From contig JAQWSU010000046.1 of NCBI GenBank assembly GCA_029243025.1, positions 1-55,591 of the forward strand: a DNA stretch of 55,591 nt, given 5' to 3'. A program made the translations under genes and the position numbers. This DNA comes from Pirellulaceae bacterium. GTDB taxonomy: Bacteria; Planctomycetota; Planctomycetia; Pirellulales; Pirellulaceae. The first letter of the stretch is position 1; each line of letters starts with the position of its first letter. A model generated the notes under the pieces. It was not told the DNA's origin, did not search any database, and was given only the letters and a program-made list of their open reading frames with translations. Of this stretch, positions 27,551 through 41,922 are shown piece by piece.

Positions 27551-30500
27551 TCAAAAGTCATCACTCGCCCAAACCGCGTCGGCCAAGCGGCGATGGATCA
27601 ACCGATCTTCGTCGATGGCCGCGAAGTCGCCAGCCGATGTCGCTGCAGCCCCCGCTGCGTAGCTACCCGCCTGAAACGCCAGCACAAGGTCGCGAGATGT
27701 GAAATCGCCATCCCCATTCCAATCGCCATCGGCCCATCCGGAGTTGATAGAGATCTCGTCTTCATATTCGCCAGCCCGAAAGACCACGACGAAGTCAGCC
27801 GAGTCAAATGTGCCGTCCAAATTCGAGTCACCATACAGCGAGCCCAAGCCCACATCGATCATCAGATTTCGATCATTCGCGTCGACAACGCCATCCCCGT
27901 TCAAATCGAACCGCAAATCACCTTGCCGCACACCTTCGGACAAAAGATCGAGATCCTTCACACCGACCGATCCATCCTGATTGAAATCAGCATCCCATGG
28001 CAACGGATCGGTCGCCCCCGGAGATCCACCTGGTTGGCTACTCGGTCGCCACCTGGAGCCGACTTCCCAGCTTTCCGGCGCTCCCCAAGGATCGCGAATC
28101 ACTAACGAGTCCCCCTCCCCATCACTCGTGGTGGGCCAATCGTTTTCCGCTGGCTGATCACCATCCTCGTAACGGAATTGCAGCACGGTCCCGTTCAGCG
28201 CGTCCTCGACTTTAATGGATTCACCGCCATTGCTGAGTGCTCCCTCGAAACTCCCAGCAATGAGATCGGCGGATACTGTCGGATAGGCAGCCTGGAAAGC
28301 CGGCAGATCGCGAACCAGCAGTACGAACGCGCCTGGAACCAGTGATGTCACCTGACTGGTCGCAAACAGGAATGGATCACTTGGACCATCGGTTATCCGA
28401 ACTCCTGTTAGATCGAGCGTGGTTCCGTCACTCGTATTCTGTAGCTCGATAAATTCTGTCGCATCCCCCGCACCGGCCGGATTGTAATGGATTTCGGTGA
28501 CGCGTAGATACTTCTGGACGTCCGAGGTGACTGTCGGAGTCTCCAAGGTCGCCATCACGACACCTTGAGGGCTGACCAATTCCACGGTCTCAGAGCGACT
28601 CGACAAATGCCCTTGGTAGCCATCCATCACAAACAATCCCTGTCCTCCGGTTGGACCGACTTGGCGATTGCGAAATGCCAGAGCATTCGGGCTGACGAAT
28701 AATGACTCCCCTGTCGGAATGACAGCTCCACCGCGGAACTGATAAGTGACACCTCCTCGCAATTCCCACCCCGAAAGATCGAACGCTTCGGGTGTAGAAT
28801 TCACCAACTCTAAATATTCTTCATCCTGATTACCACTGACTGGATTCTGGTCGAATCCGCCGAATGAAATGCTGGACTGATCGGATTGAGCGTAGGGAAT
28901 TCCGACGGCCGAATCATTCGGCAAGAGCCCTTCCACTAATTCGAGTGACAATAACAGATCATTACTGGTTGCACTTGAGTTGAGTAAATGAACAGCCAAG
29001 ACATTGTCGGCTCCCAAATCAACTTGCGACACCATCGAGGAGATATTGAAATTCTCAAACTCGACCGCTTCTGAGTCACGATGAGACCGCCCCCTCGAAT
29101 CGAAGCCGTTATCCTGCGTGCGAGTGTTGGCTCGCATCACCTCAACACCGTTCACATAGGCAATAAACCCATCGTCATACTTCATGCGCAACGTCAGATG
29201 CTCAACCGCCGACGGATCGTCTAACGAAAACGGCACACGCACCAAGACAGAAGTACAACTCGCACATGATTCAACCGGACTAACACGGGTTTGAATCAAG
29301 GATTCGTAATCCGCAGGACTACTCTCAAATCCGATCCCTAACGCCCCTGTCTTCCATTGATCTGCGTTAACAGGAAGTTCACGCCCGGTCCACGTCAGCC
29401 CGAGGTCATTGTTTGTTGGCACGAAATACTCGGCTTGATCCGTTCCCTCTGGGATCACGACCTGGTATTCCGTCTCTTGCAAATGCGAAATACTGTGAGT
29501 CTCGAAGAGATGTACTCGTCGTGGGATCAAGTAGTCCTGCTTAATTCGATCTGCAGCTTCCTCTAACGTATATCGTCTGCCGCCGAAATGCGTCCGATTC
29601 CCCCAGGTCTCTTTATCAAGCAGGACATCTGGCCCAAGCAAACCGACCAACTCATCGATACGGTTTTCAAAATACCGTTGCTCGACAGGCGTTTCCGCAG
29701 CGGCCATAAATTGGTCCATCAAGGAACGCACCCGTCGCAAAAACATCGCATTGGTTCGAGGCGAATTGACCACTGCGTGAAAGAGGTGATTTTTCCGTCC
29801 ATGGAATGGGTAATCAAGTGTTCCCATATAGGGATGGCTTGTATGCGCGGGCCGTTCATCATCGGACGTTGAGAAAATATCAGTGTTGAGGGCGTTGGGC
29901 CCCAAAACTAAGTCCAAGTCCCAGGGCAACATCTTCCACTCCTGGTTGCCCTCGGTATCACGATAGATGTAGTAATTTTTGTCCGTCGCATCCAAATTCT
30001 GCAGAATCACGTTGACTGCCATCAAATTAATCTGGGAGGCCAAATCGACGTGATCAAACAGAAAACGCTCCAATTCCTCCCCCGTCAACTTCAGTCCGTC
30101 AATCAAACCCTGCAAATCAGAGGCATCTTCCGCATGTCGCGTCTTCTTCCGGAAGTAGCCTTCAGCGCGACCGGTGAGTCCATTGAGTCGATCGGCTCGA
30201 GCCTTATAGAGAGCCCCATCGGGATCCAATCCGTTACGGCGTAGATAATCTCGATCTGGTTGCTCGACAAAGTGGGCTAAATTCCAAAACTCGCCGTTTT
30301 GCTCAACTCGAATCGGGAATGTGATCGGCGCAACTCCCCCCGAATCGCGCGTCAGCTCGTATGACAGAATCGCCCGCACATACGATTTATCGGTGTAAGT
30401 GGTATTCAAATTGAGTTCATCAACACGTGGTATATCTTCCTGAAAGCGAAAATGGTAATCGTCGTTGAACTCAATCTTGTATGCCTTCTTGGGCCAAGAT

Positions 30501-32212
30501 CGGGCGGTTCCACCGCGGATGCGAATAAAAACATTATCGTAGAATTCGCCCTGGTAAAAGACGGAAGCGCGTGTCCCACCTCCTGTTTCGGCTCGACTCT
30601 CCCGCTGAACGAAGCGGTGCAGCACTGGCAATGCTGATTCGATTGTCGTATCGCTAATCATGGTGCCGTAATATTCGGGAGAGTTATCATCCGTCAAGAA
30701 CCGAGGCATTCGAGATTCAACCCCATGTTCGTCGGTGATAGAAATCGAGTAGCGAAGCATTTCGCCCGGCTGCGCCGTACCTGCCGGTATGACGCCAGTC
30801 AACAAACCGTCATTGGCTAATAAGTCAGCACCTGTGCCATCATCGACCATCAGAACCGTTTGTTCCTCGTCGAACATTCGCCGATAGGTCAGCCGCGCCT
30901 CGGTAACGCTAACAGTCGGACCCGAGAGCTGAGCTGTTACCACCAGGGCAGTTGACTCGTCCGTCGGATCCTGGAAAGCATGGGTCGGCGGCAGCAATGA
31001 CGGCACCACGAGCGCATTTCCAGAAGCCGGAGTAGGAGTTTGTAACGATCCAAACGTTTCGCCGAAAAAGCCAAGCGAGACATCCGATACCGAGGACAAG
31101 GCAGCCGCCTCAATCTGATCTACCAGCTGACCGGATGGATCGGCCAACGAAACAAATTCACCATCACGATCCAATGAAAAACTCGCATGCAAATTACCCT
31201 GAGCGTCCAAGCTGGGATCCGTCACATCCAAACCGGAAGCGAAGATCACCATCGCACTGCTGGCTGGCAGAAGCGTCCCCGCCGGCATCTTCCACTTTTG
31301 CGGCGCATTAACATCGTCCGACAAAAAGTACCCGCCGAGATCAATCGGCTGCAATGTCGTGTTTTGGATTTCAATCCAATCATGAGCATTTGTCGGCCCA
31401 GCAAACGAATCCTCTGCACTAACCCGAATCCGTGTCGGTAAAGTACTGGCATTGGCAGCCATCACCTCACTGATTCGAAGTGGCGCAGTGGCAACGGTCA
31501 TTACCGAAAGCGCATCGCTCCAAACCGTCCCACCACCATTCACCGCAGCAAGTCGAACGTAATATTGAGAATTGGATGAAAGATCTCCAATCAACGTGCT
31601 AAACTCGCCATCCGTCCCTTCGAGTTCCAAGCTTTGCTCCCAAAAATCCGCGTCATTCCCTCCGTCGACACTGCCGTAATAGAGCGTCGCAGAAATCAAT
31701 GTCGATCTTCCGTCAATCGTTCCCTGGATCAGAGCAGCCGCATCGCTCACCAAGGGCGATTCATCCAAGGACAAATCCGCTTGAGGAAGTGCGTTCGTCG
31801 TGAAAGAGGCGATGGAATCGGCCCAGACCTGAGCCCCGGCACTCAAGCTGAAGGCAAACGCGCGATAATAATACGCAGCGCCAGCGGTAAGGCCGGAAAT
31901 CACAACCGTATGTTGCCCTGCCGGTCGGGGCCCGAGATCGGCTGAATGGTCCCAATCTCTCAACTGGTCACCACCCGCTTCGTCACCCCAAAAAATGGTA
32001 ATCGTCGGTTCAGCCCCCCCGGCTTCGATCAGATCAACGCCGATCGTTGCCGAGTCAAATGTAATATCCGCTGCCGGAAGATTCGCGACTGTAACAGCAA
32101 GCATTTGCCTGGCCTCTAACGACTCAAGCTTTACCCGTCTCCCCATTAACCTGGCCGACTTCTTGGCCGACTGAATCCGTTTCAAACGTCGCAAAATACT
32201 TTTTGGGAACAT
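27551..32212 (-). CDS. Giant CotH-kinase/lamin-tail/dockerin surface protein
   Basis: 1553 residues. The N-terminus is basic (RLKRIQSAKKSARLMGRR) with LESLEARQMLAV, matching the planctomycete export motif rather than a standard signal peptide. Domains in order: fibronectin-like repeats (about 40-235), a lamin-tail domain (VNAPQKWKMPAGTLLPAS), a spore-coat CotH kinase-like domain in the centre (FIRIRGGTARSWPKKAYKI; LNTTYTDKSYVRAILSYEL; WKMLPWDLDLVLG), further lamin-tail domains (YLELVNSTPEAFDLSGWEL; TEFIELQNTSDGTTLDLTG), and a C-terminal dockerin/EF-hand module (DADFNQDGSVGVKDLDLL, GDSNLDGTFDSADFVVVF). The CotH core suggests protein or glycan kinase-like activity outside the cell; the EF-hands bind Ca. 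Start ATG 32212 follows TAAGG. The C-terminal module is shared with two neighbours. Confidence 0.87.
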   Translation of the reverse strand: MFPKSILRRLKRIQSAKKSARLMGRRVKLESLEARQMLAVTVANLPAADITFDSATIGVDLIEAGGAEPTITIFWGDEAGGDQLRDWDHSADLGPRPAGQHTVVISGLTAGAAYYYRAFAFSLSAGAQVWADSIASFTTNALPQADLSLDESPLVSDAAALIQGTIDGRSTLISATLYYGSVDGGNDADFWEQSLELEGTDGEFSTLIGDLSSNSQYYVRLAAVNGGGTVWSDALSVMTVATAPLRISEVMAANASTLPTRIRVSAEDSFAGPTNAHDWIEIQNTTLQPIDLGGYFLSDDVNAPQKWKMPAGTLLPASSAMVIFASGLDVTDPSLDAQGNLHASFSLDRDGEFVSLADPSGQLVDQIEAAALSSVSDVSLGFFGETFGSLQTPTPASGNALVVPSLLPPTHAFQDPTDESTALVVTAQLSGPTVSVTEARLTYRRMFDEEQTVLMVDDGTGADLLANDGLLTGVIPAGTAQPGEMLRYSISITDEHGVESRMPRFLTDDNSPEYYGTMISDTTIESALPVLHRFVQRESRAETGGGTRASVFYQGEFYDNVFIRIRGGTARSWPKKAYKIEFNDDYHFRFQEDIPRVDELNLNTTYTDKSYVRAILSYELTRDSGGVAPITFPIRVEQNGEFWNLAHFVEQPDRDYLRRNGLDPDGALYKARADRLNGLTGRAEGYFRKKTRHAEDASDLQGLIDGLKLTGEELERFLFDHVDLASQINLMAVNVILQNLDATDKNYYIYRDTEGNQEWKMLPWDLDLVLGPNALNTDIFSTSDDERPAHTSHPYMGTLDYPFHGRKNHLFHAVVNSPRTNAMFLRRVRSLMDQFMAAAETPVEQRYFENRIDELVGLLGPDVLLDKETWGNRTHFGGRRYTLEEAADRIKQDYLIPRRVHLFETHSISHLQETEYQVVIPEGTDQAEYFVPTNNDLGLTWTGRELPVNADQWKTGALGIGFESSPADYESLIQTRVSPVESCASCTSVLVRVPFSLDDPSAVEHLTLRMKYDDGFIAYVNGVEVMRANTRTQDNGFDSRGRSHRDSEAVEFENFNISSMVSQVDLGADNVLAVHLLNSSATSNDLLLSLELVEGLLPNDSAVGIPYAQSDQSSISFGGFDQNPVSGNQDEEYLELVNSTPEAFDLSGWELRGGVTYQFRGGAVIPTGESLFVSPNALAFRNRQVGPTGGQGLFVMDGYQGHLSSRSETVELVSPQGVVMATLETPTVTSDVQKYLRVTEIHYNPAGAGDATEFIELQNTSDGTTLDLTGVRITDGPSDPFLFATSQVTSLVPGAFVLLVRDLPAFQAAYPTVSADLIAGSFEGALSNGGESIKVEDALNGTVLQFRYEDGDQPAENDWPTTSDGEGDSLVIRDPWGAPESWEVGSRWRPSSQPGGSPGATDPLPWDADFNQDGSVGVKDLDLLSEGVRQGDLRFDLNGDGVVDANDRNLMIDVGLGSLYGDSNLDGTFDSADFVVVFRAGEYEDEISINSGWADGDWNGDGDFTSRDLVLAFQAGSYAAGAAATSAGDFAAIDEDRLIHRRLADAVWASDDF

Positions 32213-32981
32213 ACAAAACCTTACAGCTGACAAGGAAAAATATCTCACCGCTTGATGAGCGAATTCACCGATTAACTAAATTTCTTCATTCACCACAAAC
32301 ACGATGGTGACAGCGAGATCAGAATTCACGCAGCGATCGACAACTCGAATTCGATGCACTTCCAACAGAACTCAATGCCATCCATTAATTCGATCGTCGT
32401 CGCCCGACCCTCAACTTGCAAACATCCTGGTCCGCATTTCCCACCGAATTGCTAACGTGAATAGTTCGAAAGTCGTCTGAATGATGCTAATCCGCAATAG
32501 GAATCGTTGCAAGAAAATCTATTCGCTGGACGTCGAATCCACAAAAAAGCGACCAAACACCCCATCTTTTCGTTGACAAATGCACGCCATCCGAGGCGGT
32601 CGAACATTGCCTTGCAAACACAACCCGAGACTCAAACAGCCAAGCAACCGATTTCTCACCTTAATCCAAGGAGCGACCCACTTGAGCCTGCCAACACGGC
32701 GGACCGCAAACAAACTTGATTGTGTTGATTTGACAAACTCAATGAAGACCGCGCAAAGGCGCGATGAAAACTTAATGAACAAGGGTTTCAGGACGAAATG
32801 ATTCGTTAGGATACGGTCCAGCGCTATCGGATTGTCTTACGCATGAGCAGATATTTCCAAGATGAAAGCTGTACCTAAGCTACGCGAATGAGCGCGTTGA
32901 ATGAAATCTCGTTAGACGTTTTGATCGCTAACTTCCTGTTCCTCACTCTTCAAAAAATTCCAATGACAAACGGACTCAACC
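32213..32981. other. 769-bp intergenic region between divergent surface-protein genes
   Basis: It holds the promoters of the CotH gene (minus) and the frameshifted PEP-CTERM gene (plus). Several short frames on both strands have no family resemblance, no good ribosome binding site and low-complexity composition. I find no RNA gene or clear hairpin. Confidence 0.5.
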
Positions 32982-35222: not shown

Positions 35223-35753
35223 CTACGCATCCATGGCAAGCGTCGATCGATGCCTCACCGGCAGCGTCGATTTGGCCAGGGCAACAGCGCCAAAGAAAAG
35301 TGTCGTGTAAGTCAAATCACTCAGTAACGTATTGCGAAAAAAGGGCAATGCCAGCGTGTAGCAACTGATGAATCCATTCAGATTGGGTTCATAAAATGAC
35401 AGCCAACAGGCAAAATTCGTGGCACAAAAGAAAAGACAACTGCCGATGACCGAGGCGGCGACGAGTTTGCTGGGCTGCCTTCCCGATTGACCAATCCAGT
35501 ACTGCCCAATCACCACATTGAAAATTAAGCAACCATAGACGACGAGCATCAGGGAATGGAACCCGAGCATCCAATCACTGACCAACATCGCGATGACGGG
35601 GATTAGCAAGCCAATTTTTTTCGAGCGACAAAGGGATCCAGCGAATAGAGCAAGCGCCGCGACGGGAGCAAAGTTCGGTGGATGCGGCAGGAATCGCATG
35701 GCGACAGCAAATAAAGTGATCATTGTCACCACGAGCAAGCGGGAAGAGATCAT
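35223..35753 (-). CDS. DUF6580-like integral membrane protein, candidate cobalamin-related transporter
   Basis: 176 residues, about five or six membrane helices (LLVVTMITLFAVAMRFL, FAPVAALALFAGSL, LLIPVIAMLVSDWMLG, LMLVVYGCLIFNVVIG, VIGSCLFFCATNFACWL, TTLFFGAVALA). The pattern PHPPNFAPVAALALFAG with a VSDWMLGFH loop matches my recollection of DUF6580, a small family resembling S-components of ECF vitamin transporters. Start ATG 35753 has AAGGAAACC upstream. The DUF1289 gene ends 10 bp before it, so the two are one operon. A cobalamin riboswitch lies upstream on the same strand (36204..36383). Family known: uncharacterised. Inferred: uptake of cobalamin or a precursor. Confidence 0.78.
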   Translation of the reverse strand: MISSRLLVVTMITLFAVAMRFLPHPPNFAPVAALALFAGSLCRSKKIGLLIPVIAMLVSDWMLGFHSLMLVVYGCLIFNVVIGQYWIGQSGRQPSKLVAASVIGSCLFFCATNFACWLSFYEPNLNGFISCYTLALPFFRNTLLSDLTYTTLFFGAVALAKSTLPVRHRSTLAMDA

Positions 35754-35763
35754 TGCGGGTTTC

Positions 35764-35979
35764 CTAAGGACAAGTTTCGCGGACCGAAGATACAAGGCTC
35801 ATAGCGACGCGGGATCGGTTACTTCGACTCCCCAGGCCTGCCATTACTTTATTCCGTTCTGATGGCGATAGAAAACGCCAAGCAGTGATTTCATCAAGAC
35901 TGCGACAACAACTTACGCATAAATCAGAACGGTGATCAATTCGACAAACTCCGTTACACGGGGAAATTACCGCATCCAT
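35764..35979 (-). CDS. DUF1289 family small Cys protein
   Basis: 71 residues. ISPCNGVCRIDHRSDLCVSC then CRSLDEITAWRFLSPSERNKV reproduces the DUF1289 pattern (SPC-x2-VC-x-(I/L)D ... C-x-GC-xR-(T/S)-xDEI-xW). Four or five cysteines could bind a metal or Fe-S cluster; the family has no settled function. Start ATG 35979 places the conserved core near the N-terminus. It is first gene after the cobalamin riboswitch, with 225 nt between, and is followed 10 bp later by the DUF6580-like gene. Confidence 0.85.
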   Translation of the reverse strand: MDAVISPCNGVCRIDHRSDLCVSCCRSLDEITAWRFLSPSERNKVMAGLGSRSNRSRVAMSLVSSVRETCP

Positions 35980-36203
35980 CACGGTGCTCCATTTTTCGCT
36001 ACGTTGATCGGCAACAAAATACGCGTCTTCCTGCCGACAAAACAAAACGACGAATTAACTTTGATCAGTACGACACCAGTGGGACCGGTAAAAACAGATC
36101 CGGGCGTGTCGAAATTCGCATGACCACAAAATAACCAAAGCGAACATGCAATCTGAGCAAGCGACTCGAAGTTTCGTCCGTTCGCGGCGAACGACAACTC
36201 AAC

Positions 36204-36383
36204 TGTCTGGGTAGGTCTTCTGACTTCTGCACGGGAAACCCGCCTTCTCGCTAAGGCAATCGCCTTTTGCAATGGCCAAGAAAGGGTTTCCGCCGTTAGC
36301 AGTCACAGCGGCCGGACCGTTCCGGAATTTCACCGGTATTCCCTGTTCGCCCAGTTGCCGCAGGCAACTGGGCCACCCAAACA
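36204..36383 (-). ncRNA. Cobalamin (B12) riboswitch
   Basis: On the minus strand: closing stem P1 TGTTTGGGT (36383-36375) with ACCCAGACA (36212-36204); stem CCCAGTTGCC/GGCAACTGGG; the conserved core ACAGGGAATACCGGTGAAAT, then TTCCGGAACGG and GCCGCTGTGACTGC; and the B12 box GTCAGAAGACCTACC near the 3' end. Order and spacing match the cobalamin aptamer. It senses adenosyl- or methylcobalamin and normally lowers expression of B12 uptake or synthesis genes when the vitamin is plentiful. Downstream genes are the DUF1289 protein and the DUF6580-like membrane protein. The expression platform was not resolved. Confidence 0.93.
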
Positions 36384-36399
36384 CGCTTGGAATCCAGCT

Positions 36400-36604: not shown

Positions 36605-37798
36605 CTAGCGTCGCCGGAACACCAACCCCCCCCAAGCCCCCAGCATCAACCAAGCGGTCGTTGGTTCGGGAACCACAGCGGGCGAGGCAAGCGGCCCCTT
36701 CTCGTAGCCACCATCGCTAAAAGCGGCCACCAGATCACCACTATCGAATCTCATATTGCCATCAAAATCACCATCCGCCCAACTCGCATCTTTGGGCCTG
36801 TCGTATTTCGCGGAGCTGAACATCTGCACAAGGTCCGAGCTATTGAACTCACCTTCCAAATTTGCATCGCCCACCCATGTCTTCGCATAATCCTTCACCC
36901 AAATCATCCGGTCAGCACGGTTAACGAGCCCATCGTTATTTTCATCGAAAACTCCCAGGTCCGGTGCTGCGTCAGCCATCGCAACGGACTGCAGGTCGAT
37001 GTCAGCAACATCCACCATGCCATCCCCGTTGTAGTCTCCGGAAACGTTATCAAGATAAGCATTAAAGTCACCCGACATGATCGCGAGCACTTCATCCGAG
37101 GTCAGGGCGTGATTGAAGATGGCCACATCATCCAACATTCCATCCATATTGGTTGTGCCATCAAGTCGACTGCCAATAAACAATGGCATGTCTTCGTCAA
37201 TCAGAAATACAGTTTCGCGATCGATAAAGGCGTCGCCATTTTCCTCTCCGTCGAGATAATGCACGACTTCTCCATCTTCGTCCATCGTGATGGTGATATG
37301 CGTCCAAACTTCTGCCTCGGGTGGGTCAAGGGCTTGAGAAGCCTGCAGCCCCCCGTCACCTTCACCAACGTACAATTGGACGCGTCCATCACCTTGTTGC
37401 AACGTATAGACATCGTAGGGAGAGGGTTTGTTTTGTGCGTTCGCCCCCGTCTTGGCGACAATGCTATTCCAAGTATCAAACTGAGCGAAGTTGGCCCAAG
37501 CGGCAATCGTTAACCCGGTTTCTTCAATTGAGAGTGAATCGGAGTCCGGAACCTCAAGCCATTGTTCGGGTACACCGTTACCTTGTCCCTCAAAATTCAT
37601 CGCCCCGCCCCGCTCATCATCATTCACCCAAGTGGCTTCAATGACTTCGGCATCATTACCGAACGCGCTGGAATCGGGCTGAGGATTGGCCGCCTCGTCA
37701 AAACGCCAAAGCCCAACCAGATCGGCATGAACTGGAGCACAAGTCCACATCGTGGCGATGCAAAGACCCGCACAGCTCAATAGCAACTTCAAAGTCAT
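36605..37798 (-). CDS. LamG/EF-hand PEP-CTERM secreted protein
   Basis: 397 residues. Signal peptide (MTLKLLLSCAGLCIATMWTC to VHA), LamG jelly roll (DLVGLWRFDEAANPQPDSSA; LTIAAWANFAQFDTWNSIV; WTHITITMDEDGEVVHYLDG; DDVAIFNHALTSDEVLAIM) to about residue 250, then EF-hand/dockerin repeats (SGDYNGDGMVDVADIDL; DENNDGLVNRADRMIW; VGDANLEGEFNSSDLVQMF; WADGDFDGNMRFDSGDLVAAF) and a PEP-CTERM tail VVPEPTTAW with FRRR. Start ATG 37798 has GAAGGAG 8 nt upstream. Exported, Ca-binding and probably exosortase-processed; ligand unknown. The EF-hand module is shared with the genes at 27551 and 32982. Confidence 0.9.
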   Translation of the reverse strand: MTLKLLLSCAGLCIATMWTCAPVHADLVGLWRFDEAANPQPDSSAFGNDAEVIEATWVNDDERGGAMNFEGQGNGVPEQWLEVPDSDSLSIEETGLTIAAWANFAQFDTWNSIVAKTGANAQNKPSPYDVYTLQQGDGRVQLYVGEGDGGLQASQALDPPEAEVWTHITITMDEDGEVVHYLDGEENGDAFIDRETVFLIDEDMPLFIGSRLDGTTNMDGMLDDVAIFNHALTSDEVLAIMSGDFNAYLDNVSGDYNGDGMVDVADIDLQSVAMADAAPDLGVFDENNDGLVNRADRMIWVKDYAKTWVGDANLEGEFNSSDLVQMFSSAKYDRPKDASWADGDFDGNMRFDSGDLVAAFSDGGYEKGPLASPAVVPEPTTAWLMLGAWGGLVFRRR

Positions 37799-37840
37799 CG
37801 GTGTTTCTCCTTCTTTGTTTTCCGGGGTCTCCGCGTTTAG

Positions 37841-37862
37841 AATCCATAACGAATCCATAACG
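37841..37862. repeat. 11-bp perfect tandem duplication
   Basis: AATCCATAACG occurs at 37841-37851 and 37852-37862, between the divergent LamG/PEP-CTERM gene and the ASPIC-TlpA-TPR gene. The 245-bp interval must also carry both promoters. Confidence 0.9.
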
Positions 37863-38043
37863 AGGTGTCGCCCCAGGGAACGCAAAATCGTGCCCCACTC
37901 CTCGCACCAGCCGATCTCAAAGAATCGGTCTGCTGCGGCTTTCAAACTTGTTGGGTCATTACAATGTGGTGATCAAGAGGTGGGCTAGTAAAATAGCAAT
38001 TGGACGTGACACAATCAATAAAAAAATCACTCCGAGCGAATCC

Positions 38044-41000
38044 ATGCGAAGATTCCTGGTTCTGATCCCGACACTCGTGCTATTGGGCTGCCAAATCCAA
38101 ACGGCGGATCCAGACCGGGCCGCAAAAACGAGCGCAAAGCCAGCGGATCCAGGCGATCGCAAGCCCGCCACCGTCGAGGCTTCGCTGCCGTCGGATCAGG
38201 TCATCGTCGGGGCAACCGGTGATCAATGGAAGACGGAACAAGCCAGCGAGAAAATCGATCGTCATTTAAAAGCACTGAGTGATGTCATCCTTGGCAACGC
38301 ACTCAGCGGCAACAGCGACGAACTCCTCTTTATCGACGAGGCGGTAGAATATACAGAACTCCACCCGACTGAAACCGATCTGGTTTACCAAGATGCGAGC
38401 TTGGAAATCCGACAAGCATCGGCGAATCTAAGCCAACAAATCGAGGACCAAGCCCAAGTGGGCCGAGCAGGTTTACTCGCAGAATTGAAAACGGTTGTCA
38501 AACAGCCACGTCCCAACGACACCCCGAATCTCCAAACGGCATACGGAAAATTCAAGATCACTTCGATGAGGGAAACTGATCGAGATTTCCAAGCCGAACT
38601 GTTGTGGCAGCTCAGTCTTCCAACTCGTTTCGGCAACTATCAACAGATCGCCCGCTGGCACAGTCGCTGGATCCTAAGGGATCAGAACCCTCATTTGCTC
38701 TCGCTTTCCTTGATTGAGTTTCGAGAAGTGCAGGCTCAGGAACAACGAGGGTTCGTTGATTGCACGAATGCGGTCACACGCAGTGCAAGCAACTTTGCGC
38801 AACAATTCAGTAACTCGATGAACTACTGGCTCGATCGTCTGGAATATCGTTTTGCGATCTTGCCATCAAGTTATCAGGGGATCGCCATCGCCGACGTCAA
38901 CGGCGACGGGCTGGAAGACATTTTCATTCCTCAACCGGGCGGCGTCGTTGGCGGACTTCCCAATCGGCTCTTGATACAACAGGCTGATGGAACGCTGCTC
39001 GACCGTTCGACAATTTCAGGCCTGGATTGGCTGATCGAGACTCACTCCGCATTGTTTGTCGATCTTGACAATGACGGTGACCAGGACATCATCGTCGCCA
39101 CAGTAATGGGCCTCGTCTTTGCGGCAAATGACGGGACAGGGCGTTTTGAGAAACGAGGTGTAAAGCTGACGCCAGAAGCGCCTCCAATGTCGCTCACTGC
39201 GGCTGACTTTGACCATGACAGCGATCTCGACATCTACGTCTGCTGCTATTCGCCTCGCACGTCATCAAGCTTGATGGGTCGACCGATCCCTTATCACGAT
39301 GCAAACAACGGGGGTCGCAATCTTTTACTGCGAAATGATCGCGATTGGCGATTCCGCGATGTCACTCAGTTGGTTGGCCTGGACACCAACAACCGACGAT
39401 TTAGTTTCGCAGCAGCATGGGAAGACTACGACAACGACAACGACATGGACCTGTATGTAGCCAACGACTACGGCCGCAACAATTTGTTTCGAAATGAAGG
39501 TGGCAAGTTCACGGATGTTGCAGCGGAGTTGGGGGTCGAAGACATCTCGGCAGGAATGAGCGCCACATGGGGAGACTATAACCGTGACGGCTGGATGGAC
39601 CTTTACATTAGCAACATGTGGTCCTCAGCCGGAAAACGAATTGCTTACCAACGACAGTTCCAACCCAAGGCCAGCGGAGACACACGCTCCTATCTACGCC
39701 GACACGCGCGAGGAAATTCGCTCTTTGCCAATCAACTGGGCAGCGGCCAATCAACCTTCCAGGACACTAGCTTGACGTCGGGTGTCACGATGGGGCGTTG
39801 GGCCTGGGCATCTCGCTTTGTCGACCTGAACAACAGCGGTTACCTCGACTTGGTGGTTGCCAACGGATTCATCACCCAAGAAGACACCAATGACTTGTGA
39901 AGTTATTTCTGGCGACAGGTCGTGTCGCAATCACCGCTCACCAACGAAATTGACGAGAATGAACAGCCCCACGATCCCTATCTCGAAAATTGGAACAAAC
40001 TCGCAACTCTGATTCGAGGTGGACGAAGCTTGAGCGGTCGGGAACGAAATTGTTGTTTCTTAAACCACGGAGCAATCCCACCGAACGAACAACAATTCTC
40101 CGATGTTTCCGCAGCAGTCGGGCTCGATCTAATCGATGACGGTCGTGGCTTGGCTGTCGTTGACTGGGACCACGATGGCGATCTCGATTTATGGCTGGCC
40201 AATCGCACAGGCCCCCGCATAAGATTCATGCGCAATCAGCTGGCTGAAAACACGAACTTCATCTCACTCCAACTGCAGGGCACCACCGCCAATCGCGACG
40301 CAATCGGTGCCCGCGTCGAGTTACTTAGCCACGGTGACGATGCAAGACAGATCGAGACCGTGAGAGCCGGCGAGGGTTTCCTGAGTCAGTCGAGCAAGCG
40401 GGTCCACTTCGGCTTGGGAGAAAACGAATCGCCACGCACCGTGCGTGTACGTTGGCCGGGCAGCTCGAAAATCCAGGAGTTCCCCGAACTGAAAGCGAAT
40501 CGCCGATATCGTCTCGTGCAAGGGGCCGAACAGCCCTACCTTTTCCCGAAACGGAATCCAATCACGCTTGAACCCGGCGAATTGACAGCTCCCCCGACAA
40601 ACGACGCCACGCGTGTCGTACTCTCACAGCGCCGAAATCTCCCCAAGCTGAATCTGATTTCTTTTACAGGAGAGCAACAGCCGTTGTCGTCGATCGGCAG
40701 CCAACCCACGTTGATCAATCTTTGGGCCAGTTGGTGTCAACCGTGCATTGAAGAGTTGCAGCAACTGGCAAAGCAAGCTCAGGAGTATAAGGCACAGGGG
40801 CTTGAAATCGTGGCGATCAGCGTCGATGAAGACGTCGCGGCTGCAACCCAAGTATACGAACGGTTGGAATTGCCGTTCACGGGCGGAATGGCCCCGAACT
40901 CGACAGTCGAACAGCTAACTCAAATCGACCGCGAAATTTTCTACCGTTTTCAAAATCTTCCACTTCCCTGCAGTTTCCTGGTCGATCAAAGTGGCAAAGT

Positions 41001-41922
41001 CGCGGTGGTTTACAAGGGGCCCGTCAGCGGAGACCAACTACAAAGCGACATCGATTCTTTGCAGGGTTCGCTCACCCAAATGGTGCAGACAGGGCAACCG
41101 TTTCCCGGACAATCGATTGCAGCTTGGTTTTCACCCGATCCGGTCAATATTGCTCGCGCTTATTGGGAGGGCGGTTATGCGGACGAAGCAATCGATGCTT
41201 TGACGGATCCAGTGCAAAAACCCACTTCAACCCAGGAAAAACTCCGGGCCCTTCAACTGTTGGCCACCATCGCCAAGAGTAAAAACATGCCTGCCTTGCA
41301 TCAATCTTCCCTGCAGCAACTTGTCCGTCTCCAACCCAACGGATTTGCGGCCAGAATTCAACTTGCCCTTAGCTACCACCGAGAAGGCCGCGCGAAAGAG
41401 CTTTCTGCACAGATCGATCATCTCGAAAGGTCTGCAGCCGATCATGCCCAATTATTGCGAATGCTTGGACCGTTCTACATCAGCCTAGGGCAGCCCGAGC
41501 AAGGACTCAAACGTCTCAAACAAGCCCAAAGACTTTCACCGAATGACGCCGAAATACAGATGAGTGTGGCGTTGGCCTATCAGATCTCGGCAGAAATCAA
41601 CCTTGCCATCAAGCAGTACGAAGAAATATTGCAAAATCATCCCCATCGACTGGATGCAGCCAACAATTTGGCGTGGCTATTAGCCACGGATCCAAGCACG
41701 GCTGCAAGACGATCTGAAGCTGTAGCGCTTGCTAAGGAGACATGCCGTCAAACCCAAGATCGCCACCCCGCCTTTCTCGATACACTGGCGATGGCACTCG
41801 CTAACTCCGGAGACCAAGCTGCCGCGGTTGATGTTCTTCGTCGAGCGATTCCTGTGGCGCAAGGACGTGGCGAGATCGATCTTGCCAGAAAAATGAGAGA
41901 TCGGCTGACCTCTTACCAATAG
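38044..41922 (+). CDS. VCBS/ASPIC-TlpA-TPR lipoprotein, candidate selenoprotein (UGA at 39898-39900 read as Sec619)
   Basis: 1292 residues if UGA is read through. Lipoprotein signal (MRRFLVLIPTLVLLGCQ, Cys 16); a helical region to about 270; FG-GAP/VCBS propeller repeats at about 275-617 (VNGDGLEDIFIPQ, DLDNDGDQDIIVA, DYDNDNDMDLYVAN, DYNRDGWMDLYISN, DLNNSGYLDLVVANG); UGA within NDL-U-SYFWRQVVSQSP; more VCBS sequence and an ASPIC/UnbV domain (IGARVELLSHGD to YRLVQ, about 690-830); a TlpA/thioredoxin domain from about 865 with NLWASWCQPCIEEL (Cys898, Cys901); and TPR repeats from about 1040. The frame is unbroken except for UGA; the second half lacks its own Shine-Dalgarno and starts mid-domain. 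A strong hairpin follows UGA. A split pair of genes or a nonsense mutation are the alternatives. Function unknown; an exported redox role is plausible. Confidence 0.75.
39912..39928 (+). promoter_or_regulatory. Putative bacterial SECIS hairpin of the ASPIC-TlpA-TPR gene
   Basis: GCGACA (39912-39917), loop GGTCG (39918-39922) and TGTCGC (39923-39928) form a perfect 6-bp stem. The stem starts 12 nt after the UGA and the loop GG lies at +18/+19. In E. coli fdhF the loop GGUCU starts at +19, so size, loop and spacing nearly coincide. The formate dehydrogenase hairpin in this window has the same architecture. Confidence 0.75.

Follow-up and report, generated by a model that had tools for sequence, protein, structure and literature searches.

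The window, a stretch of 55,591 nucleotides from a Pirellulaceae bacterium, harbours a gene (Table 1) that belongs to a large selenoprotein family, the Sec-propeller family, absent from the published catalogues compared (Table 1 of PMC13188914 and Table 1 of PMC9312934). Its reading frame is interrupted by one UGA, at which, judging from the sequence comparisons, selenocysteine (Sec) is almost certainly inserted. Very probably, the members of this family are selenoproteins with a probable redox role. Computation gives strong support to the Sec codon and the SECIS-like hairpin, to a single uninterrupted product, to deep conservation, and to the presence of 24 copies of the gene in this genome.

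Table 1. Features of the window gene and of its surroundings (positions in the window)
Feature	Position	Strand	Remarks
LamG-domain protein, divergent neighbour	36605..37945	-	Pfam PF13385
Read-through gene	38044..41922	+	1292 residues, Sec at 619; probable exported lipoprotein
FG-GAP/VCBS beta-propeller repeats, DxDxDG-type motifs	38875..39873 (approx.)	+	Pfam PF13517, E 3.5e-36; Foldseek to CRTAC1 9etn
In-frame UGA, predicted Sec codon, residue 619	39898..39900	+	context D-L-U-S-Y-F-W-R; aligned TGA in 73/73
bSECIS-like hairpin	39912..39928	+	stem 39912-39917/39923-39928; loop GGTCG 39918-39922
Last FG-GAP blade, past the Sec-bearing helical insert	40036..40240 (approx.)	+	alignment; PF13517 on the matching part of L047 and L164
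UnbV/ASPIC domain	40300..40509	+	Pfam PF07593, E 7.5e-20
TlpA/ResA-like thioredoxin domain	40639..41007	+	Pfam PF00578, E 1.9e-15; ResA/TlpA in Foldseek
TlpA CxxC codons (WASWCQPC)	40735-40737, 40744-40746	+	CxxC kept in 54/54
C-terminal TPR region	41130..41919 (approx.)	+	Pfam TPR matches
Sec UGA of formate dehydrogenase alpha (frame 47139-43930)	46587-46585	-	context ARI-U-HSSS

The first-pass annotation described two long frames in the same phase, split by one UGA, and this holds. Counted from the ATG, 618 codons lie to the left of the UGA and 673 to the right, and translation with TGA as U gives a continuous product that ends at a TAG, the UGA being the sole in-frame stop. The domain set given there (FG-GAP, ASPIC, TlpA, and TPR) is correct for the window copy according to Pfam and Foldseek. 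The N-terminus of the window gene, MRRFLVLIPTLVLLGC, contains a lipobox-like LLGC, recognised by eye. A crude lipobox scan detected a lipobox-like motif in eleven out of thirty-four 5'-complete frames and missed that of the window gene itself; the protein is therefore probably exported chiefly on the grounds of the window gene's N-terminus.

Among the matches listed in a search across 196 related genomes, at least 97 long UGA-form copies were found in at least 29 genomes; about six candidates were scored per genome, so that these counts are lower bounds. All 97 listed matches (E ≤ 5.6e-136, window gene included) carry one in-frame stop, always TGA and never TAA or TAG. Therefore, a chance origin of the single in-frame UGA is excluded in practice. 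Some shorter homologs in the same search have extra stops (a second TGA, TAA or TAG). The scan of the Sec site comprised 89 loci, with L130, a second copy of the window gene, and L156 to L159, which align without the motif, dropped. Checked codon by codon, the TGA stands at the same aligned residue in all 73 UGA genes, including the window gene. Five of these 73 are named MAG loci, four of them labelled Pirellulales, Planctomycetes or Planctomycetota, and one Akkermansiaceae. The nine named loci in the site scan were picked from 80 for aligning through the motif, and the other 71 present different residues, gaps, or no alignment across the Sec site. In one of these 71, L077, the alignment lacks the motif but contains a Cys. 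The in-frame TGA of L066 was rejected as a Sec codon, since it is an ordinary C-terminal stop.

The first-pass annotation had made its proposal of a new selenoprotein depend on the residue at x in D-L-x-S homologs, where Cys or Sec would speak for it and other residues against it. This residue is Sec (UGA) in every one of the 73 genes checked, and Cys in eight out of nine genes of a separate clade, the ninth of which (L017) has Glu at the site and a TAG nine codons further on. In one of the Cys genes, L178, a TAA precedes the site. In one clade, Sec is replaced by Asp in L129 and by Ser in L179. Together with the Glu of L017, these residues speak against the proposal, and so do more distant CRTAC1-type proteins, in which the site is occupied by unrelated residues or falls in a gap. 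Asp at position -2 and Trp at +4 from Sec are invariant, and the +4 codon is TGG in 73/73. The comparison set of 61 proteins was chosen for Ser at +1, thus no claim on the +1 residue is made from it.

The hairpin with a GGUCG loop reported at +18 was located (GCGACA-GGUCG-UGUCGC), the first loop base being the 18th nucleotide past the UGA. The bSECIS model describes a loop of 3-9 nt, situated 16-37 nt from the UGA, with G in the first two loop positions and an MFE ≤ -7.5 (PMC13188914). The window hairpin agrees with this model in loop, spacing, and energy (-9.3 kcal/mol for the fold of nucleotides 10-45). In the same folds, counted past the U of the UGA, two of the 73 genes (L126 and L150) do not reach -7.5 kcal/mol, and several genes have a structure other than the hairpin as their minimum-energy fold. 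In subfamily 1 the stem positions are paired in 98.5%, versus a mean of 59.4% and a maximum of 67.3% under synonymous recoding (2000 trials). Subfamily 2 possesses a different hairpin, paired in 100% versus 57.0% under synonymous recoding. Compensatory changes, on both sides of the stem, occur at four of the six pairs, which was reached in 0/500 shuffles. A hairpin pattern with at least five pairs follows 73/73 UGA codons, 0/8 Cys codons, and 540/3772 background codons. The hairpin is thus kept in the homologs beyond coding needs, as the selenoprotein proposal had called for, and is absent after the eight tested Cys codons. Formate dehydrogenase alpha, an unrelated protein in the window, has a hairpin (GUGCCC-GGUCU-GGGCAC) of the same geometry. 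The two had been called nearly identical, which is too strong, because the stems differ and the loops have only GGUC in common.

According to the first-pass annotation, the right frame has no independent start. This did not stand, as an in-frame GTG that begins at 39922, on the final loop base of the hairpin and seven codons past the UGA, is a possible start that opens an ORF of 666 codons. Two proteins could be made in this manner, with a stop at the UGA, a restart at the GTG, and little or no read-through, possibly depending on the supply of selenium. This is nonetheless very improbable, given that the residues between the UGA and the GTG are conserved, among them the invariant TGG, that the Cys homologs continue across the site without a stop, that the hairpin exceeds coding needs, and that the stop is never TAA or TAG in the listed matches.

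The genome of the window also possesses the machinery for Sec insertion, including tRNA-Sec with a TCA anticodon, selA, and selB. Of the 29 genomes in which the long UGA form was listed, 24 have selA over the cut-off; it was not found in the other five, all of which are fragmented assemblies with selB and/or a strong candidate tRNA-Sec match. All five named UGA genomes have selA. In the genomes with Cys or Glu forms, selA is present in three out of four, therefore the Cys forms are not due to absent machinery. The UGA of formate dehydrogenase alpha, whose part past the UGA matches TIGR01553 above the cut-off, is an internal sign of Sec use in this genome. A change of the genetic code that turns UGA into a general sense codon, pseudogenes, or sequencing errors would account for the in-frame UGA itself and nothing more, and can be dismissed for practical purposes: TGA terminates 13 out of 27 selected long frames in the window, tRNA-Sec, selA and selB are present, and the UGA recurs at the same single position in at least 29 genomes with protein similarity running across it.

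The best fold match of the protein is CRTAC1 (cartilage acidic protein 1, PDB 9etn; E 9.5e-28, TM 0.75 by target length), which is also the best PDB sequence match and has the layout of FG-GAP propeller and UnbV/ASPIC in common with it. In the predicted structure model, Sec is in a helical insert ahead of the last blade of the CRTAC1-like propeller and begins a helix; the confidence of the model around the Sec block is moderate (mean pLDDT 63 for 551-560). The Sec had been placed at the junction of propeller and ASPIC, which is not exact, as one more FG-GAP blade lies between Sec and ASPIC. The local HMM alignments with CRTAC1 omit the part of the window protein with the Sec insert. CRTAC1 is not known to have a TlpA/TPR tail or selenocysteine, nor is animal CRTAC1 known to have an enzymatic role. 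A redox-active bacterial relative would be a lead for the animal protein. A CRTAC1-annotated gene is reported to adjoin homologs of hydrazine synthase (PMC12758564).

In the proposed mechanism, SelB and tRNA-Sec would decode the UGA, guided by the hairpin directly 3' of it. The single long, probably exported product would consist of a CRTAC1-like beta-propeller, the Sec-bearing helix, the last blade, ASPIC, TlpA, and TPR. The Sec at the helix start, between Asp(-2) and Trp(+4), may be the catalytic nucleophile with which an envelope oxidoreductase attacks an oxidised substrate (a disulfide, a sulfoxide or a peroxide), possibly carried by a surface partner. The CxxC of the fused TlpA domain would then reduce the selenenyl intermediate again, with electrons taken from the periplasmic thiol-reduction pathway of the cell. 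Where TlpA is missing, a separate reductant would take its place.

The internal relay through TlpA suggested by the first-pass annotation is plausible for the long forms. All 54 long members that have both Sec and a TlpA domain retain the CxxC, and the two members of that clade without Sec have lost it. This loss of Sec together with CxxC concerns one clade with long branches. A WCxxC regex missed 15 out of 56 long members, and 13 of these 15 have, in the alignment, a CxxC after another residue, which gives the count of 54/54. The relay is not universal, since TlpA is absent from other Sec-bearing relatives (subfamily 2, L047, and two out of four subfamily-3 members). Sec lies about 280 residues upstream of the TlpA CxxC, in a different fold. 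We regard the chances of a TlpA relay in the long forms as even.

The Sec could also be a ligand of a metal or cofactor, or a structural or sensing residue, with the TlpA domain put to another use, such as keeping surface partners reduced. In favour of this, the alignment has no UxxC or CxxU motif at Sec, the Sec stands amid FG-GAP repeats with DxDxDG-type motifs, some forms have no TlpA at all, and the Sec of formate dehydrogenase is a metal ligand that binds Mo or W (PMC13188914). Nevertheless, thiol/selenol redox chemistry agrees better with the exchange with Cys and with the loss of both Sec and CxxC in one clade, and no conserved His/Cys cluster beside Sec stood out in an unsystematic look at the alignment. 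A ligand or structural role is therefore unlikely, and a redox use of the Sec is the likely one.

The C-terminal WCxxC domain is of the same type as the TlpA/ResA thiol-disulfide oxidoreductases. The PilB-type TlpA-MsrA-MsrB fusions, whose TlpA domain could recycle the fused catalytic module, offer an analogy in architecture only. In the window protein, NF010625 falls far below the cut-off, only the TlpA part matches, and no Msr domain was found. Catalogued selenoproteins of the AhpC-TSA/TlpA kind have the Sec within UxxC/UGC, whereas the thioredoxin motif of the window protein is CxxC (Table 1 of PMC13188914). The first-pass annotation knew of no selenoprotein with this domain set, in agreement with two published tables: FG-GAP, ASPIC, and CRTAC1 have no entry among the 119 prokaryotic selenoprotein families and subfamilies of the 2026 Table 1 (PMC13188914), nor in Table 1 of PMC9312934. 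The Sec is thus placed in the CRTAC1 propeller, a fold absent from those tables. Gene callers would likely split the genes of this family in two. A 2016 planctomycete study reportedly gives selenoprotein candidates in a supplement (S9). The literature searches showed no paper on the Sec-propeller family, with a prior listing in Supplement S9 of PMC4807772 possible.

Together with formate dehydrogenase, the 24 copies would bring the number of Sec genes in this genome to at least 25, compared with 46 as the largest number for a bacterium in the literature consulted (PMC12013277). The family implies an influence of selenium supply on the exported proteome in an environmental group. Exported-looking genes similar to the LamG-domain neighbour adjoin several other Sec-propeller copies. 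Tentatively, and with the odds rather against it, the paralogous exported proteins may form a selenium-dependent surface-redox system, in which Sec exchanges electrons with a partner and with the fused TlpA. If true, an integrin-alpha/CRTAC1-like propeller fold would hold a Sec active site, possibly in one of the largest Sec expansions of any single family in a bacterium. In this reading, the partner is a surface protein of PEP-CTERM, LamG, CBM9 or CotH type, and many copies adjoin one of their own. The linkage to CotH kinases is only a hint, because the expected numbers come from a uniform approximation that ignores contig ends and clustering; a CotH match lies within 20 kb of 15/24 copies (about 7.0 expected), within 12 kb of 9/24 (about 4.2 expected), and within 8 kb of 3/24 (about 2.8 expected).

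Judged by computation, the gene with the internal TGA belongs to a new and widely conserved selenoprotein family, in line with the main claim of the first-pass annotation. With the TGA read through, it encodes a product of 1292 residues, with a lipobox-like LLGC at the N-terminus (judged by eye). Pfam detected FG-GAP repeats upstream of the UGA, and UnbV_ASPIC, AhpC-TSA/thioredoxin and TPR domains downstream of it. Neither half of the gene matched a specific NCBIfam (release 20.0) model above cut-off. An AlphaFold2 model of residues 61-1032, built with 39 aligned sequences and with selenocysteine (Sec) modelled as Cys (model residue 559), had a mean pLDDT of 78.6 and a pTM of 0.78. In this model Sec lies at the start of a predicted helix (558-569, model numbering), with a local mean pLDDT of 63 for 551-560 and 92 for 561-570. 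The best solved Foldseek match was murine cartilage acidic protein 1 (CRTAC1, 9etn; E 9.5e-28, TM 0.75 by target), and the C-terminal domain matched ResA/TlpA. Sec had been placed at the propeller-ASPIC junction. One FG-GAP repeat follows Sec (alignment, and Pfam on relatives), which puts Sec not exactly at this junction but in an insert that precedes the last blade.

Features of the window, with coordinates and strand
Feature	Position	Strand	Remark
Giant CotH-kinase/lamin-tail/dockerin protein	27551-32248	-	domain scan
DUF6580 frame	35223-35795	-	downstream of cobalamin riboswitch
DUF1289 frame	35764-36045	-	downstream of cobalamin riboswitch
Cobalamin riboswitch	36193-36395	-	80 bits
Read-through frame	38044-41922	+	single internal TGA, terminal TAG
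In-frame TGA	39898-39900	+	sole interruption of the read-through frame
Six-pair hairpin	39912-39928	+	loop GGUCG; 3' of the in-frame UGA
Formate dehydrogenase-N alpha	47139-43930	-	frame split by Sec UGA at 46587-46585

No FG-GAP, ASPIC or CRTAC1 entry is present in the table of 87 selenoprotein families of PMC9312934 (2022) or in the complete table of 119 families of PMC13188914 (2026), and FG-GAP, VCBS, ASPIC, CRTAC and planctomycete names do not occur as words in the latter. Likewise, none of the nine new families named in deep-Sep (PMC12013277) is FG-GAP/ASPIC/CRTAC1-like. The family is new with respect to the published tables of PMC9312934 and PMC13188914. PMC4807772 (2016), a study of three planctomycetes, describes Sec use in two. 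PMC12758564 describes a CRTAC1-annotated FG-GAP gene flanking hydrazine-synthase homologs in some genomes.

The codon scan of the aligned site covered 89 loci; L130 (a duplicate of the window's gene) and L156-L159 (aligned without the motif) were left out of the count. TGA was found exactly at this site in 73 distinct genes, the window's included, all with Asp at -2 (read from the alignment) and TGG as the +4 codon. Subfamily 1 (56 genes) mostly has the motif D-L-U-S-x-F/Y-W-R-Q-V, subfamily 2 (13 genes) P-D-G-U-x-C-x-W, and subfamily 3 (four genes) D-L-U-S-x-x-W-R-T. The residue at the site largely agrees with a selenoprotein family, with Cys in eight loci (D-Y/H-C-T-x-x-W; L178 among them carries an upstream TAA), but Asp in L129, Ser in L179 and Glu in L017 run against it. 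A tree of 84 rows, made by a quick method and with several long branches, requires three changes of state at the site and has Sec genes on both sides of deep splits. Two branches have support 100 each: one unites the Cys genes with L017, the other the Asp form with the Ser form. Among loci L160-L175 there are shorter Sec propellers, comprising subfamily 2 (PDGU), with its own hairpin and without TlpA, and subfamily 3, with yet another hairpin; both look like further selenoprotein subfamilies.

Conservation of the hairpin supports the claim. For the six pairs of subfamily 1, 98.5% of cells are paired, whereas 2000 synonymous recodings preserving the protein average 59.4% and do not exceed 67.3%; the full stem is present in 51 of the 56 genes (recoding mean 2.0, maximum 8). 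The hairpin of subfamily 2 differs (GGCUGU-CGUGUC-ACAGCC) and is 100% paired (recoding mean 57.0%); that of subfamily 3, with four genes only, has five pairs, also at 100% (recoding mean 74.9%, maximum 95.0%). In an alignment of 60 genes (subfamilies 1 and 3), both sides of the stem have changed at four of six pairs. None of 500 shuffles attained this level, and pairing is lower in every slid register. A shape like the bacterial hairpin 3' of Sec UGA codons (bSECIS), with at least five pairs, follows all 73 UGA codons, none of the eight Cys codons, one of the three Asp/Ser/Glu codons and 540 of 3772 background codons of the same genes; with at least six pairs, the counts are 71/73, 0/8, 0/3 and 342/3766. 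The window's hairpin (-9.3 kcal/mol on nt 10-45) is also within the bSECIS limits set out in PMC13188914. Of the 73, two (L126, L150) do not reach -7.5 kcal/mol on nt 10-45, and several genes have a different structure as the minimum-energy fold of these nucleotides.

The protein-similarity search revealed 80 named loci, five with TGA at the aligned site: L009, L010, L012 and L047, labelled Pirellulales, Planctomycetes or Planctomycetota, and L011, labelled Akkermansiaceae. Cys within the motif occurs in four genes of three loci (L016 twice, L045, L058), L017 has its Glu with a TAG nine codons downstream, and the remaining 71 have other residues, gaps, or alignments not reaching across the site. 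About six candidates were scored per genome in the search of 196 related genomes, so its counts are lower bounds: 80 genomes have a match at E<=1e-20, and the 97 matches listed at E<=5.6e-136 (window's own included), from 29 genomes, all have exactly one stop, a TGA. A second, shorter group (open frame roughly 780-920 residues) has one TGA in most rows, a second TGA, TAA or TAG in a few and no stop in some. A search of the window's genome with the Sec region gave 49 matches. Of these, 24 have a single TGA, the window's gene among them; the other 25, which are more distant, have none.

This genome also possesses a tRNA-Sec with anticodon TCA, selB (365 bits, cut-off 242) and selA (570 bits, cut-off 268). 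Among the related genomes selA is above cut-off in 105 of 196. It is present in 24 of 29 genomes carrying the long UGA form versus 81 of the 167 others (one-sided Fisher p 4.4e-4, only indicative as the genomes are related). The five long-UGA genomes without a selA match are fragmented assemblies (120-1270 contigs). Of these five, G065, G143 and G192 have selB and a candidate tRNA-Sec match (69-71 bits), G145 has selB, and G063 has a candidate tRNA-Sec match (69 bits) with a negative selB search. In the named records selA is present in five of five with UGA and in three of four with Cys or Glu; therefore, the Cys forms are not simply due to missing Sec machinery.

An alignable TlpA domain is present in 54 of the 56 subfamily-1 genes, the exceptions being L147, whose frame is short, and L047, which lacks the domain; C-x-x-C is kept in all 54. 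Two of the four subfamily-3 genes have a WCxxC motif, and no TlpA domain was found in the frames of subfamily 2 or of the Cys genes. With this distribution, TlpA would serve some members as an internal reductant but would not be needed by all. The proposed relay between Sec and TlpA is a reasonable hypothesis for the long members. In L129 the TlpA-equivalent segment aligns weakly (E 0.064), without CxxC; in L179 the alignment covers just the later half (E 5e-5), with no CxxC within the 409 residues examined. No Pfam thioredoxin family was found for L179, nor among 25 of the 28 families listed for L129. This joint loss of Sec and CxxC fits a shared pathway but concerns a single clade. L129 and L179 are long homologs in genomes with selA, and are possible pseudoenzymes.

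Several copies directly adjoin exported-looking genes in the regions fetched: LamG (in the window), LamG-dockerin-PEP-CTERM, PEP-CTERM alone, CBM9 and giant proteins. The domain scan, made on the window's giant protein, showed CotH and lamin-tail domains. Copies L194 and L196 have no such neighbour. These neighbours suggest Sec propellers with surface partners. The window's genome is very rich in CotH domains (61 matches), and their enrichment around the Sec copies is weak to moderate.

The formate dehydrogenase-N alpha gene is the second selenoprotein gene of the window. The hairpin after its UGA has the same geometry as that of the propeller gene, with loop GGUCU, and iron-sulfur and NrfD-like genes are located downstream. 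The DUF1289 and DUF6580 frames are possibly B12-related.
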